From contig NZ_JALBYQ010000001.1 of the NCBI RefSeq assembly GCF_022678625.1, positions 1,263,895 to 1,327,894 on the forward strand: a DNA stretch of 64,000 nucleotides, in the 5' to 3' direction. Of the stretch, positions 4,125 through 62,007 are shown piece by piece (positions within the stretch are counted from its first letter, which is position 1; each line of letters starts with the position of its first letter). The notes under the pieces are model-generated. The model had not been told where the DNA came from. It was given only the letters and a program-made list of their open reading frames with translations, and ran no database searches. Source of the DNA: Aliiroseovarius subalbicans (lineage in GTDB: Bacteria > Pseudomonadota > Alphaproteobacteria > Rhodobacterales > Rhodobacteraceae). Made by a program: the position numbers and the translations under genes.

Positions 4125-6065
4125 ATGTCCGAGATCAAAACCTACCCGCCCAGTGCAGATTTCACCGCGCATGCGCATATCGACGCGGCGAAATACACCG
4201 AGTTGTACAATGCCTCGGTCAAGGATCCGGAAGCGTTCTGGGGCGAGGCTGCAAAGCGCCTGGACTGGATCACCGCCCCCACGAAGATGAAGAACACCAC
4301 GTTCAAATACCCCGACGTCTCGATCAAATGGTTCGAAGACGGCGTGCTGAACGTGTCCGCCAATTGCGTCGACCGTCACCTGGCGACCCGCGGCGACCAG
4401 ACCGCGATCATCTGGGAAAGCGACAACCCGGACGTTGACGCCAAGATCACCTATAACGAGCTGCACGAGAAAGTGTCGAAGCTGGCCAATGTCATGAAGG
4501 GCATGGGCGTCGGCAAGGGCGACCGCGTGGTTCTCTACCTCCCGATGATCCCCGAGGCCTCCTATGCCATGCTGGCCTGCGCGCGCATCGGTGCTGTGCA
4601 TTCCATCGTCTTCGCCGGCTTCTCGCCCGAGGCGCTTGCCTCGCGGATCGGTGCCTGTGGCGCGTCGCTGGTCGTGACGGCTGACCAGGCCCCGCGCGGC
4701 GGCCGCAACACACCGCTGAAAACCAATGTGGACAAGGCGCTGTCAATCTGCGGCGACGTGCAGACCCTGGTGGTTGAACGCACCGGTGAGGACGTGCCGA
4801 TGACCGACGGGCGCGACCATGCCTATGCGGCGAAGATGGCTGCGGCGTCGGCAGATTGCCCGCCCGAACCGATGAACGCCGAAGACCCGCTGTTCATCCT
4901 CTATACGTCGGGTTCGACCGGACAACCGAAGGGCGTGGTGCACACGACCGGCGGCTACCTGCTCTACGCCGCGATGACGCATGAGCACGTGTTCGATTAC
5001 CATGACGGCGACGTCTACTGGTGTACGGCCGACGTGGGCTGGGTCACCGGCCACAGCTATATCGTCTATGGCCCGCTCGCGAATGGTGCGATCACATTGA
5101 TGTTCGAAGGCACCCCGACCTATCCCGATTTCTCGCGGTTCTGGCGGGTCTGCGAAAAGCACAAGGTCAACCAGTTCTACACCGCCCCCACCGCGATCCG
5201 CGCGCTGATGGCGCATGGGGACGACTGGGTGACGAAATGCGATCTGTCGTCGCTGAAGGTGCTGGGCACGGTCGGCGAACCGATCAACCCCGAGGCCTGG
5301 AACTGGTACAATGACATCGTCGGCGGGGGCACCTGCCCGATCGTCGACACTTGGTGGCAGACCGAAACCGGCGGTCACCTGTTGACCCCCCTGCCCGGCG
5401 CCACACCGACCAAACCCGGATCGGCCACCGTGCCGTATTTCGGCGTGCAACCGGTGATCCTGGACCCCACCACGGGCGAAGAAATCACCACGACCGAGGC
5501 CGAGGGCGTGCTGTGCATGCGCGACAGCTGGCCCGGTCAGATGCGCACCGTCTGGGGCGATCACGACCGCTTCGTTGCGACCTATTTCGCGGACTACAAG
5601 GGCTACTACTTCACCGGTGATGGCTGCCGCCGCGATGCGGACGGCTATTACTGGATCACCGGCCGGGTCGACGACGTGATCAACGTCTCGGGCCACCGCA
5701 TGGGCACCGCCGAGGTCGAAAGCGCCCTGGTCGCCCATGAGGCCGTATCCGAGGCCGCCGTCGTCGGCTTCCCGCACGACATCAAAGGTCAGGGCATCTA
5801 TTGTTACGTCACCCTGATGGACGGTGAGGAATACACCGACGAGCTGAAGACCGTGCTGCGCAATTGGGTGCGTTCGGAAATCGGCCCGATCGCCAGCCCG
5901 GACCACATCCAGTGGGCGCCGGGCCTTCCCAAGACCCGCTCGGGCAAGATCATGCGTCGCATTCTGCGCAAGATCGCCGAGGATGACTACGGCGCCCTGG
6001 GCGATACCTCGACCCTGGCCGATCCGGGCGTGGTGAACGACCTGATCGACAACCGCATGAAGTAA
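4125..6065 (+). CDS. acs: Acetyl-CoA synthetase (AMP-forming)
   Basis: Makes acetyl-CoA from acetate, ATP and CoA through acetyl-AMP in the cytoplasm. At 646 residues it is full length for Acs. The P-loop-like motif [11 protein letters not shown] is at about 260-270. WWQTETGG carries the Trp that closes the acetate pocket and favours acetyl over longer acyl groups. [18 protein letters not shown] forms the hinge, and the C-terminal SGKIMRR holds the catalytic lysine that is acetylated in the family. ATG 4125 follows AAGAAAGG. It sits 70 bases behind livF and ends at a strong terminator. The placement could mean that the transporter feeds a substrate broken down to acetate, but simple adjacency is also possible. 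Confidence 0.95.
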
Positions 6066-6088
6066 CGCGCCCCGCGCGTTCAAGCCAA

Positions 6089-6118
6089 GGGGCCGGTGCC
6101 AGCGCGCCGGCCCTTTTT
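6089..6118 (+). terminator. Rho-independent terminator after acs
   Basis: GGGCCGG (6090-6096) pairs with CCGGCCC (6107-6113) and is followed by TTTTT at 6114-6118. It closes the rightward liv-acs unit. Confidence 0.85.
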
Positions 6119-6226
6119 CATGCGCGTCTTTCCGCCGGTCCCACCCCGGTTTGACGCGGATCATTGCGCGACCTCAACCCAAGCGCGACCCTTCCCCCAC
6201 ATCACAGAAAGATGGGGAGGAATACT

Positions 6227-6499
6227 ATGCGTAAACAATTGATCCTTTTGGCCTGTGCCAGCAGCTTGGCGATTGCGGGCTGCAACATGACCACCCAGGA
6301 ACAGATGGTCGTGGGCGGCGTTGTCGGTGGGGCCGCCGGGCTTCTGACCGCTAACGCATTGAATGCTAACACGAATTGGACAATTCTGGCGGTTCTGGCT
6401 GGGGCAGCGGCAGGCTCTTTGGTTGCGAAGAACAACGCGACAGGCGAATGCGCCTATGCCAAGGGCGACGGCACCTACTACACCGCCCCGTGCTACTGA
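6227..6499 (+). CDS. Small glycine-zipper lipoprotein
   Basis: 90 residues. ATG 6227 is preceded by GGGGAGG, so this start is preferred over a GTG-type extension at 6164. MRKQLILLACASSLAIAGC is a lipoprotein signal with lipobox IAGC, giving a lipid-anchored Cys at residue 19. The mature part holds a glycine-zipper pair (VVGGVVGGAAG and AVLAGAAAGS) typical of small envelope lipoproteins of the 17 kDa antigen or OsmB type. The tail has two more Cys (GECAYA and APCY) that could pair. It stands alone between the acs terminator and the convergent dehydrogenase gene. Exact role unknown. Confidence 0.8.
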   Translation: MRKQLILLACASSLAIAGCNMTTQEQMVVGGVVGGAAGLLTANALNANTNWTILAVLAGAAAGSLVAKNNATGECAYAKGDGTYYTAPCY

Positions 6500-6518
6500 T
6501 CTGACGTCCGATCCGAGC

Positions 6519-7322
6519 TTATTGCGCCGTCCAGCCACCATCGATTGGGATGGTGGTGCCGGTCACGTTATGAGCAATCGGGTCGCAGAGCCACAAGGCC
6601 AGCGCGCCGATCTCGGCAGGGTCCGAGGTGCGCTGGCTGGGCTGTTTTTCCGACAAAAGGTCAGCGATGCCCTTGTCGCGGTCACCGCCGAAGGCCTCGG
6701 CGCGCGCCTGCACCTGCGGTTCGATGATCGCGGTTTCGGTCCAGCCCGGCGCGATGCAGTTCACCGTCACACCGCCCTGCGCTTTGGTGCCCGCGTTGGC
6801 ATACTCCAGCGCCGCGACACGGCTCAGCCCGACCAGGCCGAACTTGGCCGCCACATACGGCGCCTTGTGCTTTGAGGCGACCAATCCATGCACCGACGCG
6901 ATGTTCACCACCCGGCCATAGCCGCGCTTGGCCATGCCCGGCATCGCGGCCTGCATCGTGTGGAACGCGGCGGACAGGTTCACATTCAGGATCGCGTCCC
7001 AGGTGTCGCGCGGCATGTCGGCCAAGGCTGCCGTGTGCTGGATACCTGCGTTGTTGACCAGAATGTCCGCCCCACCCCAGGCCGCGACCGCGTCCATCAT
7101 GTCGGCAATTCGGTCCGGGTGACGCAGGTCGCCGCCGAAAAACTCGGCCTCGGGCGCGCCAGCCTTCTCAAGCTTTTCACACACCTCGCGCACCTGCATG
7201 TCGCCCGCCAACCCATGTACAGCGATCCGCGCACCCGCACCCGCAAGCGCTTCGGCAATCGCCAAGCCAATACCTTGCACAGACCCTGTGACAAGGGCAG
7301 TTTTTCCGGTCAGATCGGTCAT
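6519..7322 (-). CDS. bdhA: 3-hydroxybutyrate dehydrogenase-type short-chain dehydrogenase
   Basis: NAD(P)-dependent SDR of 267 residues. The nucleotide motif TGSVQGIGLA lies close to the N-terminus, NNAG follows, and the catalytic set is Ser in NIASVHGLVAS, Tyr-x3-Lys in APYVAAKFG. The VHGLVAS-K segment and the PGWTET region resemble 3-hydroxybutyrate dehydrogenases, which interconvert 3-hydroxybutyrate and acetoacetate. ATG 7322 overlaps the stop of the upstream CoA ligase by four bases (ATGA), so translation is probably coupled; the open frame continues upstream only as a shadow. It is the last gene of the thiolase-ligase-dehydrogenase operon. A different hydroxyacyl substrate is possible. 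Confidence 0.82.
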   Translation of the reverse strand: MTDLTGKTALVTGSVQGIGLAIAEALAGAGARIAVHGLAGDMQVREVCEKLEKAGAPEAEFFGGDLRHPDRIADMMDAVAAWGGADILVNNAGIQHTAALADMPRDTWDAILNVNLSAAFHTMQAAMPGMAKRGYGRVVNIASVHGLVASKHKAPYVAAKFGLVGLSRVAALEYANAGTKAQGGVTVNCIAPGWTETAIIEPQVQARAEAFGGDRDKGIADLLSEKQPSQRTSDPAEIGALALWLCDPIAHNVTGTTIPIDGGWTAQ

Positions 7323-57587: not shown

Positions 57588-57627
57588 GGCAAGTTGGCGG
57601 AGTGGTGACGCCGCGAGTTGCAAATCC
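57588..57627 (+). pseudogene. Truncated tRNA-Cys remnant (5' half)
   Basis: The first 40 bases align with the intact tRNA-Cys at 58670 with 36 identities; mismatches are at positions 4, 25, 29 and 30. D arm and anticodon loop (TTGCAAA) are kept, but the sequence diverges right after TTGCAAATCC and there is no T arm or 3' acceptor strand. It cannot fold as a tRNA. It is the left-hand scar of a broken tRNA gene or of an old insertion event. Confidence 0.8.
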
Positions 57628-58669: not shown

Positions 58670-58743
58670 GGCGAGTTGGCGGAGTGGTGACGCAGCGGAT
58701 TGCAAATCCGTGTACACCGGTTCGATTCCGGTACTCGCCTCCA
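58670..58743 (+). tRNA. tRNA-Cys (anticodon GCA)
   Basis: Acceptor GGCGAGT pairs with ACTCGCC, with discriminator T and encoded CCA. Anticodon stem-loop GCGGA-TTGCAAA-TCCGT gives GCA. T arm CCGGTTCGATTCCGG is standard. Length 74 bases. A leftward integrase gene ends 68 bases past its 3' end, so the 3' part is the likely attachment site of the neighbouring element. Confidence 0.97.
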
Positions 58744-58811: not shown

Positions 58812-59843
58812 TCACGTTTCGCTCTTGCTTCGTTCCATTTGATTTCTCGCCTCTTGAGCACGCTTCGCGAGCTCCCTTTGCCGGATCGGCCCGCCGTATT
58901 TTTTCAGCATCTCAACGCCTGAGTGCCCGGTGACAGCCTTGACCATCTCGTCATCACATCCAGCCAAATAAAGCTCGATCGTCGCGTTTTTCCTGAGCCC
59001 GTGCGTTTTGTAGTTGCTCGCCTTCTCATGCTTCATCTTCTTTTTGATGGTGCGCATTTCCTCTGCAACGATGCGGTAGCTCACCGGTCGACCTTTGGGG
59101 TCGGTCACGACAGTACCATCCGTTCGCGCGAGTCCGTCGAGATGGGCTTTGAGGCGATCGGTGAGCGGGATCCACAGCGGCTTGTCGGTTTTGCCTTGAG
59201 TGAAATCGAATCCCTCATCCGAAAAGTGCGCCCACTTCATCTTCACGACATCGCCAATGCGCTGGCCCGTGCCAACGCAAAGCTCGTAGACCAGCCGCGC
59301 GCGTTTTGAAGCCAGGGCTTCGAACTCTGCTCGAACATCATCTGGCCAAGGCTCCCACCCGTCGCTTTGCTGCTTGAATAGCGGAATGCCCTTCGCCGGA
59401 TTGCCATGCTCTTTCTTGATAAAACCAATCAGACGGGCGTGGTTCATCAAGACGACCATGACCTGGACGAGATAGTTGGCTTGCCGCCAGTGATCCGCAT
59501 TGGCGCGGTGCAATTCGTAAATGTGATGGGTTTCGATCCTGGCCGGGTCTTTCTCGGCCCAGATCTCACGAATGTGGCTGATGTAACGCCGGTAGTCTGA
59601 TTTCGTCCGGGGCTTCAGCTTCTCATACGCGTCGCTCTCATAGTAGCTGAGGATCAGCGCCTCGAAATTGCGCTTCACCAGTGCTGGCGCTGGCTTGCCC
59701 TTTAGCAACCGATTGTAGTGATCCCAAAATTCCGGAGTGCCCGCTTCCTCATGCATCATGACTGAGATGCCACGCGAACGCCGGATGAACCGGAGATATC
59801 CCCTGTCATTGTAGACGTATTTTGGCAGGCTCTTGCGGGTCAT
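58812..59843 (-). CDS. Tyrosine recombinase / phage-type integrase
   Basis: 343 residues. Catalytic set: Arg195 (GTGQRIGDV), Lys218 (GKTDK), His281-x-x-Arg284 (THGLRK), His307 (TGHSGVE) and Tyr316 (LKKYGG). A SAM-like core-binding domain lies at about 55-150 and an arm-type N-terminal part (PKYVYNDRGYLRFIRR) ahead of it. The gene reads towards tRNA-Cys, the usual layout for an element integrated at the tRNA 3' end. The start overlaps the stop of the 63-residue gene by ATGA. Confidence 0.95.
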   Translation of the reverse strand: MTRKSLPKYVYNDRGYLRFIRRSRGISVMMHEEAGTPEFWDHYNRLLKGKPAPALVKRNFEALILSYYESDAYEKLKPRTKSDYRRYISHIREIWAEKDPARIETHHIYELHRANADHWRQANYLVQVMVVLMNHARLIGFIKKEHGNPAKGIPLFKQQSDGWEPWPDDVRAEFEALASKRARLVYELCVGTGQRIGDVVKMKWAHFSDEGFDFTQGKTDKPLWIPLTDRLKAHLDGLARTDGTVVTDPKGRPVSYRIVAEEMRTIKKKMKHEKASNYKTHGLRKNATIELYLAGCDDEMVKAVTGHSGVEMLKKYGGPIRQRELAKRAQEARNQMERSKSET

Positions 59844-60031
59844 TCGCCCATTCTCAAGTCACTGTTGAGGAAGTCGTCCGCTGCCTCTGGCGCGACCATG
59901 TTCGCATCGACGATGACGCTGCCATCAGGCTTGATCTCGAACTTTGCGCGCTGCCAACCTGCCTCCCGCGCCTCGCGGATAAAGGCTGAGGCCGCTTGTT
60001 TCGCCTTTGTCTGTGCACTTGCTTTGGTCAT
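59840..60031 (-). CDS. Small hypothetical protein coupled to the integrase
   Basis: 63 residues, with ATG 60031 and AGAGG upstream. A basic helical N-terminus (AQTKAKQAASAFIREAREAGWQRAKFEIKPDGSVIV) is followed by an acidic tail. No HTH is evident. Position and ATGA overlap with the integrase suggest a recombination accessory factor or helper. Family not recognised. Confidence 0.7.
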   Translation of the reverse strand: MTKASAQTKAKQAASAFIREAREAGWQRAKFEIKPDGSVIVDANMVAPEAADDFLNSDLRMGE

Positions 60032-60055: not shown

Positions 60056-60250
60056 TTAACAACGCGCATTATCACACTGATTCATATTGATATTTCCAAT
60101 TGAACCGAGTGCGGAACGCCTGTCCTTCGCCGCGCGAATGGCGCGGATAACTTCAGAGTTTTGGGAGTTGCCATTGCGATCGGACTCCGCCTTGATCCAC
60201 TCTTTGAGCTCTTGCGGAAGCCGAAGCTGCATTGGTTTACGACTATTCAT
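60056..60250 (-). CDS. Arc-type ribbon-helix-helix DNA-binding protein
   Basis: 64 residues from ATG 60250, with GGAGGCG upstream; the frame's earlier ATG lacks a ribosome site. MQLRLPQELKEWIKAESDRNGNSQNSEVIRAIRAA is an Arc/MetJ-like beta strand and two helices. It probably represses or controls the integrase operon downstream and its own promoter. It is divergent from a second RHH gene across an 84-base gap with two palindromes. Confidence 0.85.
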   Translation of the reverse strand: MNSRKPMQLRLPQELKEWIKAESDRNGNSQNSEVIRAIRAAKDRRSALGSIGNINMNQCDNARC

Positions 60251-60282
60251 GAAACGCCTCCAGGTTGAAAACACACCTCATT

Positions 60283-60299
60283 AGTGGCACTTAGCCACT
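60283..60299 (+). promoter_or_regulatory. Palindrome 1 in the divergent RHH promoter region
   Basis: AGTGGC (60283-60288), ACTTA, GCCACT (60294-60299). The half-site TGGC is shared with palindrome 2 at 60320. It lies 33 bases from the leftward RHH start. Candidate operator for one or both RHH proteins. Confidence 0.6.
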
Positions 60300-60319
60300 A
60301 TTGCGTCAATCGCTTTTTA

Positions 60320-60332
60320 TGGCACAATGCCA
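60320..60332 (+). promoter_or_regulatory. Palindrome 2 in the divergent RHH promoter region
   Basis: TGGCA CAA TGCCA lies immediately before ATG 60335, over the ribosome-binding region of the rightward RHH gene. The centre is 35 bases from that of palindrome 1. Binding here would block translation initiation or transcription of that gene. Confidence 0.6.
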
Positions 60333-60334
60333 CC

Positions 60335-60649
60335 ATGTCAGAACAAAATGCTCAAAATCAGGACAAGTTCATCGTGCGATTGCCGGATGGCCTTCGTGAC
60401 CGGATAAGGCTCGCGGCCGAGAGCAACCACCGTAGCATGAACGCTGAGGTCGTTGCCCTCCTTGAAGAAAACTACCCCGCGCCAGTCCCGGAAAACATCA
60501 GCGACCCCGCAGCCCGAATGCTATTCTGGCTCGCCAAACGAATCCGACGGAGAAGCCCGCAACCGGGCTCACCCAGAGACAAGCAAGCCGCCCTATACGA
60601 GCGTATTGCGGGCGATATTTCGGAACGCATGAAGGATATCGGGGAATAG
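60335..60649 (+). CDS. Arc-family ribbon-helix-helix protein
   Basis: 104 residues from ATG 60335. DKFIVRLPDGLRDRIRLAAESNHRSMNAEVVALLEENYP is a clear Arc-like RHH. A basic tail follows (FWLAKRIRRRSPQPG, DISERMKDIGE). It opposes the 64-residue RHH protein; the two probably form a switch between integrase expression and silence, by analogy with Arc/Mnt and phage repressor pairs. Convergent with the TrbM-like gene. Confidence 0.85.
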   Translation: MSEQNAQNQDKFIVRLPDGLRDRIRLAAESNHRSMNAEVVALLEENYPAPVPENISDPAARMLFWLAKRIRRRSPQPGSPRDKQAALYERIAGDISERMKDIGE

Positions 60650-60651
60650 CC

Positions 60652-61293
60652 TTAGTAGGCCACCCACTCGTATCCATGGTTGCCTTCGTGATCTTCCCAT
60701 TCTACGCCAACCCCGCGTCGCCAATTCGACGACGAACAGCGTCGCGACGGCAGCACCCACTGCGGGGCCGCCGCTGGTGTTGTGCGTTGCCAACCGAATT
60801 CGCCCTGCGTGCCATAGGTCCCGAGGAGAATATTGTAGCTCTCAGAACAGTCATCGTCGCGACCGCGTTCGCGATGGCTGTAGTACCGAACATCCCAGAC
60901 GCGGATCGAGCGCACGAAATCAAACTCGAGGCCGCTGATGTCGATATCGGCACCGCCTTCGACCACCTGCGCTAAAATGAATTGACCAAGGTTCTCTCCC
61001 GTTAGAGTGCTTGCGTCCCAAACTCGTGGTGCCGTGCTTTGCAACGGACCTCGCTCTGCAACCCCCATCGGACACCGCCAGATCTGCAACGGCGGCTCGA
61101 TCGGCCAAGGCGTAATCCGCCTTATGAAAACCGCACGAGCATGGGCACATTCTGCTGAAGCTGGCCACCCGCCAGCCAGGCAAAGCAGAATGGCGCAATC
61201 AACTTGGTAGGCTCTTGCTGCCTGCGGAGCCAAGCTGGAAACGACACTTATGGCGACCCCGCCAAGCAAATTTCGGATGGATTTGAGCCACAT
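60652..61293 (-). CDS. Secreted protein with a TrbM-like Cys motif
   Basis: 213 residues. Sec-type leader (LLGGVAISVVSSLAPQAARA) precedes YQVDCAILLCLAGGWPASAEC, then RRITPWPIEPPLQIW and RCPMG. This C-x5-C, PWP-PPLQIW, CPM pattern is like TrbM/KikA-type proteins of conjugation loci. The C-terminal half is rich in Asp and Trp with no known domain. It suggests descent from a conjugative or mobilisable element, though no other transfer gene is present here. Confidence 0.72.
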   Translation of the reverse strand: MWLKSIRNLLGGVAISVVSSLAPQAARAYQVDCAILLCLAGGWPASAECAHARAVFIRRITPWPIEPPLQIWRCPMGVAERGPLQSTAPRVWDASTLTGENLGQFILAQVVEGGADIDISGLEFDFVRSIRVWDVRYYSHRERGRDDDCSESYNILLGTYGTQGEFGWQRTTPAAAPQWVLPSRRCSSSNWRRGVGVEWEDHEGNHGYEWVAY

Positions 61294-61666: not shown

Positions 61667-61867
61667 TTGCCCGAATTTGAGAGTGGTCGCACAACCGCCG
61701 AAGCCATCGGCCGCATTACGTGCATTAAAACAGGTGTCGAAATCGGCCTACTTTATCTGTGGGATAACGGCGACACGCAGGCCGCGCTGCACGAAGACGG
61801 CCTGCCTCGATCGACAATCTGCCCAGAGCAAAATGCAGAACCGGACCTTGGTGCAAATCGCGGCTAA
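61667..61867 (+). CDS. Doubtful short ORF after the Xre gene
   Basis: 66 residues with a TTG start (MPEFESGRTTAEAIGRITCIKTGVEIGLLYL). No family recognised and no ribosome site of note. Its 3' part runs into the degenerate repeat region, so it may be a broken gene. Confidence 0.3.
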   Translation: MPEFESGRTTAEAIGRITCIKTGVEIGLLYLWDNGDTQAALHEDGLPRSTICPEQNAEPDLGANRG

Positions 61868-62007
61868 GGGCCGGAATGAGCCCTCTTTACCGAATTTCTG
61901 CGCCGCCGCTAAAGTCCGCTTTAGGGAAACAAGGATTTGAAGCTCAATGGAAGTCGGCCCAGAGCGGGCCTTGATGCAGATTGCAACAAATGACGGCTTA
62001 GCGCCCG
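61821..62007. repeat. Degenerate direct repeat in non-coding DNA
   Basis: Two copies, 61821-61874 and 61957-62007, share GCCCAGAGC, then CCTTG-TGCA-AT-GC and a final GGCT-AG with CCCG or CCGG nearby. They are offset by 136 bases and differ by small indels. The first copy overlaps the end of the doubtful ORF. They resemble decayed intergenic repeats I associate with marine Rhodobacteraceae. Confidence 0.45.

Follow-up and report, generated by a model that had tools for sequence, protein, structure and literature searches.

Which protein reads the pair of palindromes that lies between two opposed repressor genes, and what would its binding decide? The question arises in the window, the whole 64,000-nucleotide stretch of Aliiroseovarius subalbicans DNA analysed here, where two divergent Arc-family RHH genes are separated by an 84-base gap (60251–60334) and a tyrosine integrase adjoins a tRNA gene. 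How RHH proteins recognise DNA is understood for a small number of them, Arc, Mnt and AmrZ among others; in Arc, the base contacts are made by residues 9, 11 and 13. The rightward gene (60335–60649, + strand) encodes protein A, of 104 aa, whose β-strand KFIVRLP presents the contacts K-I-R. It matches PF03869 with an E-value of 3.3e-14 (52.9 bits against a cut-off of 20.4), its closest solved chain is AmrZ (3qoq, E 9e-10), and the top fold matches of its model (mean pLDDT 78.5, pTM 0.49) include Arc mutants, none of them at E ≤ 0.001. Protein B, encoded leftward (60056–60250, − strand), has 64 aa, the β-strand PMQLRLP and the contacts P-Q-R; it also exceeds the PF03869 cut-off of 20.4 (25.8 bits, E 9.9e-6) and matches Arc itself (1u9p, E 2.4e-4), so that the Arc-type identity given to both genes by an earlier, sequence-only reading of this DNA holds.

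The B gene, which carries the ribosome site GGAGG (60257–60261, − strand), opens the integrase operon. It is followed in the same direction, after a small gap, by a 63-aa ORF that occupies the B–integrase interval (59840–60031, − strand), has no Pfam match, is 90–100% identical among the relatives compared, and overlaps the start of the integrase gene (58812–59843, − strand; 343 aa; PF00589 E 3.5e-15). The leftward transcript thus includes the integrase together with B and the 63-aa ORF, which bears out the link to integrase expression proposed earlier. Beyond the integrase lies tRNA-Cys(GCA) (58670–58743, + strand), the apparent integration site. Downstream of A there is no antirepressor gene, the next ORF (60652–61293) running on the opposite strand; the latter encodes 213 aa, is 82–98% identical in nearly all relatives, and has no match in Pfam, PHROGs, NCBIfam or PADLOC.

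Both palindromes are present in the 84-base gap with their centres 35 bp apart, as previously described, and they do share a half-site. The pairing of palindrome 1 reaches 60283–60299 (AGTGGC-ACTTA-GCCACT, centre 60291) and contains putative operator 1, TGGC-ACTTA-GCCA (60285–60297), flanked by the −35-like and the −10-like element of the operon that leads leftward to the integrase. Palindrome 2, quoted as TGGCA-CAA-TGCCA (60320–60332, centre 60326), corresponds to putative operator 2, TGGC-ACAAT-GCCA, which ends two bases before the rightward ATG. Both can be written TGGC-N5-GCCA, identical in half-site and in spacing, and 60285–60301 and 60320–60336 form a 17-nt direct repeat, in register and 76% identical. 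The two sites had been assigned different spacings, which is false: the apparent difference arose because one palindrome was written to include its outer base pairs and the other to include its inner one. A code that tells two proteins apart by spacing therefore does not exist here.

When the gap is shuffled with its dinucleotides preserved, some 4-bp half-site recurs at a single spacing in 114 of 20,000 cases. The abundance of TGGC-N5-GCCA proves nothing by itself, because the whole window has 4 matches against 2.9 expected; the case for the palindromes rests on conservation, not rarity. The two further matches of the window lie inside coding sequence, and the surroundings of the tRNA end, the expected location of the integrase arm sites, showed no such palindrome; the search proposed for the arm sites thus has a negative outcome here. 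In the genome that carries the window, TGGCAC-N3-GCCAC has five matches, two of them in this gap; the other three (G000:C7:1187273, G000:C9:80880 and G000:C9:419278) could be extra A targets or chance.

In geometry the palindromes match the sites of Arc, Mnt and AmrZ, and an operator of two half-sites in an N5 frame near the repressor's own gene, as expected of repressors of this type, is what the gap contains. The likeness is closest to AmrZ of Pseudomonas aeruginosa: according to the parts of PMC3325190 that describe its complex with DNA, residues K18, V20 and R22 read two 5′-GGC half-sites separated by a five-base linker, and AmrZ represses its own gene from two sites. At the corresponding positions A has K-I-R, and both sites of the gap are GGC-N5-GCC; A is thus the probable reader of both. 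AmrZ differs in being a chromosomal regulator of virulence genes, and no divergent RHH partner was seen at the AmrZ-like loci of our sample (for example L128–L143). Another Arc-like RHH regulator of a mobile element, TprA of ICE PAPI-1 (NCBIfam NF052309), resembles A with an E-value of 1.6e-10; however, A scores only 41 against the cut-off of 150 of this profile, and TprA is portrayed, in the sections of PMC8565334 that concern it, as an activator acting with NdpA2, with no operator described for it there.

A scan of genome contigs gave 36 relatives of A, all in Rhodobacteraceae or other alphaproteobacterial records. In a comparison of distinct window-type gaps, site 1 is retained in 29 of 29 and site 2 in 28 of 29; the palindromes thus recur in homologous gene pairs, whose lack of them would have refuted the sequence-only reading. 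Agreement with the window over these 29 gaps is 0.98–1.00 for the arms of the half-sites, whereas other parts drift: it falls to 0.80 in the linker between the −35 and site 2 (60310–60318), to 0.76 in the site 2 spacer and to 0.77 in the leader (60263–60280). Between the sites, TTGCGTCAA (60301–60309, − strand; read on the minus strand as TTGACG(CAA)) has a mean agreement of 1.00 over the 29 gaps and is likely the −35 of the leftward, integrase-operon promoter; counting clusters of every type, 65 of 74 contain GTCAA, where shuffles give 10.3. A strict σ70 promoter scan gave nothing above threshold, and the promoter positions are therefore putative. Palindrome 2 had also been placed over the ribosome site of A: it does end two bases before the ATG, but no Shine–Dalgarno sequence is recognised there, which makes this placement doubtful, and the A mRNA may be leaderless.

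To what extent the half-site belongs to A can be read from a wider family of divergent RHH pairs. Matches to PF03869 were found in 30 of 295 genomes of the family, 34 of 292 of the order, 18 of 385 of the class and 71 of 398 of the phylum; together with loci collected earlier, they yielded a first set of 109 divergent pairs with 75 distinct gaps, 15 of these 75 pairs being left out because their orientation as A and B was not assignable. A B-type query gave 74 viral loci (66 distinct pairs), and an A-type query, of which the best 80 of at least 537 relatives were taken, gave loci with a divergent RHH partner in 77 of these 80. In this family, A-type proteins combine a second helix of RSMNAEI type with a C-terminal tail, B-type proteins are short and mostly of the SSQNSE type, and the N5 frame is constant across pairs while the sequence of the half-sites varies. 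An integrase lies downstream of B in 27 of 74 clusters and downstream of A in one; in the flank examined of the other 46, none was seen. L270 is the sole cluster in which the integrase was seen downstream of A instead of B.

Across 117 distinct divergent pairs, the half-site tracks A. A rule relating the three β-strand contacts of A to the half-site was fixed from the first set before the viral loci were examined: K-[I/V]-R to GGC, K-M-R to GTC, Q-N-R to AGC, Q-K-[N/L/M/I] to ACA, Q-K-R to ACC, Q-[V/G]-R to CAC and R-Q-R to ACT. After removal of 9 of the 66 viral pairs as duplicates and of 18 of the remaining 57, whose A triples fall outside the rule, at least one predicted palindrome was found in 28 of 39 held-out gaps and at least two in 22 of 39; the six wrong half-sites gave two or more palindromes in 0 of 234 tests. 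By triple, at least one predicted site was present for K-[I/V]-R in 9/9, for Q-K-R in 5/5 and for Q-N-R in 4/4 held-out viral pairs, and the failures lay with K-M-R (found in 10 of 16, missed in 6), Q-V-R (0/3) and R-Q-R (0/2). In a second set, 24 of whose 48 pairs fall outside the rule, the predicted palindrome occurs at least once in 15 of 24 pairs and at least twice in 13, against a single wrong half-site at two or more copies in 144 tests (L341); pairs with K-[I/V]-R have at least one GGC palindrome in 8 of 9. Two pairs break the rule outright: L341, which has K-M-R and yet carries GGC palindromes twice, and L314, which has K-V-R and no site.

The dependence on A persists when B is held constant. 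With B fixed as P-Q-R, the 75% clusters have GGC where A carries I or V (9/9) and GTC where it carries M (10/10); clustering at 60% leaves smaller counts, 5 GGC and 3 GTC, in the same direction. In leave-one-out prediction of the half-site, which left out 25 of 76 clusters lacking an unambiguous repeated half-site, the triple of A is right in 39 of 44 cases and that of B in 12 of 36. Operators tuned to B were considered as the main reading and rejected, since among pairs with an unchanged P-Q-R in B it is A that the half-site follows. Of 36 K-x-R clusters, 12 without a GGC or GTC call were set aside; residue and site correspond in all 24 that remain, and each of the two changes 7 times on the best tree. 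The distribution of I/V versus M over the A tree is a scattered one, requiring 10 changes where shuffled labels require 12.1. That tree is built from 41 columns only and places 1 of 7 independent pairs on well-supported branches; being short and mostly unresolved, it suggests rather than proves that the paired changes of residue and site arose independently of one another.

Several gaps that break the rule contain two to four copies of a single hybrid site in the N5 frame, such as TGTC-N5-GCTA. The 88 clusters with a known A half, which for Q-I-R, Q-M-R, K-L-R and R-x-R was chosen once the hybrid data had been inspected, divide into 33 with at least two homotypic sites, 21 with repeated hybrids, 17 with one homotypic site and 17 that are unclear; L250 is counted as homotypic, its hybrid being an overlap artefact. 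Mononucleotide shuffles predict about 0.01 clusters with repeated hybrids, against the 21 of 88 found, and the types include TGTC/TAGC, TCGC/TATC and TGCC/TACC. Where A is K-M-R, none of 8 clusters with a P-Q-R partner has hybrids, against 11 of 15 clusters with other partners (Fisher p 0.0013, 6 unclear clusters excluded); where A is Q-I-R, the sites are homotypic if the partner is Q-A-R (3/3) and TCGC/TATC hybrids if it is Q-Q-R or G-L-R (5/5). These figures, in which lineage effects may still be present, point to B as the reader of the second half of hybrid sites. No simple β-triple code was found for the half contributed by B. Among K-M-R pairs, small in number, position 9 of B goes with the site class: proline with homotypic sites, alanine with TATC, and lysine, arginine or glycine with TAGC. 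The exception is L235, which has alanine at this position and yet TAGC.

It is tempting to see in these loci a widespread family of divergent RHH gene pairs, belonging to phages and integrative elements, whose operators are co-read by two different repressors, A fixing one half through three β-strand residues and the divergent B the other, although we hold this generalisation only tentatively, at somewhat less than even odds. The closest analogue of the hybrid operators would be TP901-1, in which, as the relevant parts of PMC7250872 have it, two divergently encoded repressors, CI and MOR, act jointly on a composite operator; there, the agent is a CI:MOR complex and not two RHH proteins. Among the titles and abstract openings listed from searches of open-licence PubMed Central full text, there was neither a description of hybrid RHH operators nor one of a divergent RHH pair controlling an integrase. 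In the window, where B is P-Q-R, both halves of each site carry the half-site of A.

The reading that we favour for the window, with a probability of roughly 0.84, is that the palindromes are the twin operators of A, one for each divergent promoter, through which A locks both its own gene and the integrase operon. The computation shows the gene order, the geometry and conservation of the palindromes, and their covariation with A; to these the reading adds binding and repression by A, at promoters whose positions we infer. By comparison with AmrZ and Arc, each operator would be read by two RHH dimers, with one K-I-R β-strand per GGC half-site. Operator 1 would sit in the core of the leftward promoter that serves B, the 63-aa ORF and the integrase, and operator 2 would cover the end of the rightward promoter together with the likely leaderless start of A itself. 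By repressing the integrase operon along with its own gene, A would form a negative-feedback lock that keeps the integrase off as long as A is present; candidates for releasing it are B, the neighbouring ORF, or the loss of A on transfer.

In phage P22 (NC_002371), the immI region offers a precedent for a different arrangement, in which each of two RHH proteins owns one palindrome. Like the window, immI has divergent Arc-family RHH genes, overlapping divergent promoters and operators in the N5 frame; between mnt and arc lie the annotated Oarc, TAGA-N5-TCTA, and Omnt, GTCC-N5-GGAC. But these are two different half-sites with centres 25 bp apart, whereas the window has a single half-site repeated at 35 bp, TGGC-N5-GCCA at both places, so that each protein does not have its own operator with its own half-site; moreover, arc leads into ant and the partner operon of the window holds the integrase. 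With half-site and spacing identical, a division of the two palindromes between A and B by spacing is scarcely credible, and the two-protein toggle built on that difference by the sequence-only reading lacks support, the half-site following A and not its leftward partner. Another view would make the palindromes RNA hairpins, or explain their conservation by their promoter context. They do overlap conserved promoter-like DNA, and single palindromes are common, even if a repeated pair arises in only the 114 of 20,000 shuffles given above; yet half-sites that change with the contact residues of a protein are not what a hairpin or a promoter would produce, and operator 2 lies mostly upstream of the putative leaderless start. 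We consider this view very unlikely.

A sharing of the operators deserves more weight. P-Q-R partners are weakly linked to TGGC halves, and B could therefore share the sites: A and B would read the same TGGC half-sites as side-by-side homodimers or as A–B complexes, and their ratio would decide integrase expression, which amounts to the toggle of the sequence-only reading in corrected form. The contact residues of A and B covary over the 74 clusters (permutation p 2e-4 at position 9; same-residue p 6e-4 at position 11), and several pairs have one triple in both proteins, including four held-out pairs with Q-K-R/Q-K-R. In the same direction point the absence of hybrids from pairs of K-M-R with P-Q-R partners (0/8 against 11/15) and the presence of a TGGC half in 5 of 11 P-Q-R-partner gaps, against 9 of 84, where A is not K-[I/V]-R (Fisher p 0.009). 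Against this stand the switching of the half-site with A in 19 of 19 clusters at constant P-Q-R, and the homotypy of both window operators for the half-site of A, which leaves none set aside for B; a proline at contact position 9 of B would, in addition, be a poor base reader. On balance, shared operators appear a possible but rather unlikely description of the window, and A acting on its twin operators remains the preferred one.

The right part of the element indicates how such a repressor may acquire a different operator. Eleven elements (L059–L069) have the tRNA-Cys site or the right part in common with the window; their DNA similarity to it, about 80–88% identity, resumes within the A gene in a zone at about 60446–60503 (+ strand) and extends to 61789–61930 in ten of them, L063 reaching only 60648. 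The tRNA end is matched in 10 of 11, and the window integrase has a tblastn match in 0 of 11. Upstream of the zone, the DNA-binding half of A and the operators differ, while the C-terminal half is shared: in L059, L062, L064, L067 and L068, A is identical to that of the window at 14–15 of residues 1–44 and at 47–50 of the 60 residues 45–104, and the elements have the β-strand QFKLLLP and, in most, operators of the form GGACA-N5-TGTCC. L058 is the reverse mosaic, with 40/44 and 41/60 identical residues. These differences run jointly through the DNA-binding half, the operators, the partner and the integrase, all of which have probably been exchanged as a cassette by recombination near the domain border of A.

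At its far end, similarity among the relatives L034–L069 stops near 61883, after a shared end resembling GGCCGGAAnGAGCCC in the region 61850–61930, and the genomes diverge beyond. A search of the window with a 20-mer from the tRNA 3′ end, allowing up to 3 mismatches, gave one match, and no far-end direct repeat was found there. A stretch of 40 bases (57588–57627) that duplicates the 5′ portion of tRNA-Cys, lying about 1 kb upstream of the intact gene and 90% identical where compared in relatives, is perhaps the scar of an earlier integration. The relatives also carry additional genes. In L057 (4361–7069), as well as in L055 and L058, A is separated from the 213-aa ORF by some 2.7 kb of cargo, which in L057 encodes a UvrD-type helicase with topoisomerase zinc ribbons and PADLOC matches to GajB-like helicases; in L059, an ORF (5564–6979) past the HTH gene has a PADLOC match to Argonaute-associated restriction-type models, which suggests defence-like cargo at the right side of the element.

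In summary, the locus is, by prediction, a real operator pair and part of a large natural series related to Arc, Mnt and AmrZ, in which nature has supplied over a hundred distinct repressor–operator pairs in one fixed geometry, from which a contact code can be deduced, applied predictively and put to the test. The joint swap seen in L059–L069, which have the C-terminal half of the repressor and the downstream genes in common with the window despite their joint differences elsewhere, suggests a route by which mobile elements gain new repressor specificity. If the hybrid operators are real, they would represent a new type of two-repressor operator; and if the co-reading of operators by A and B is true of the family, the control of integration would be a two-protein operator code, swapped as a cassette.
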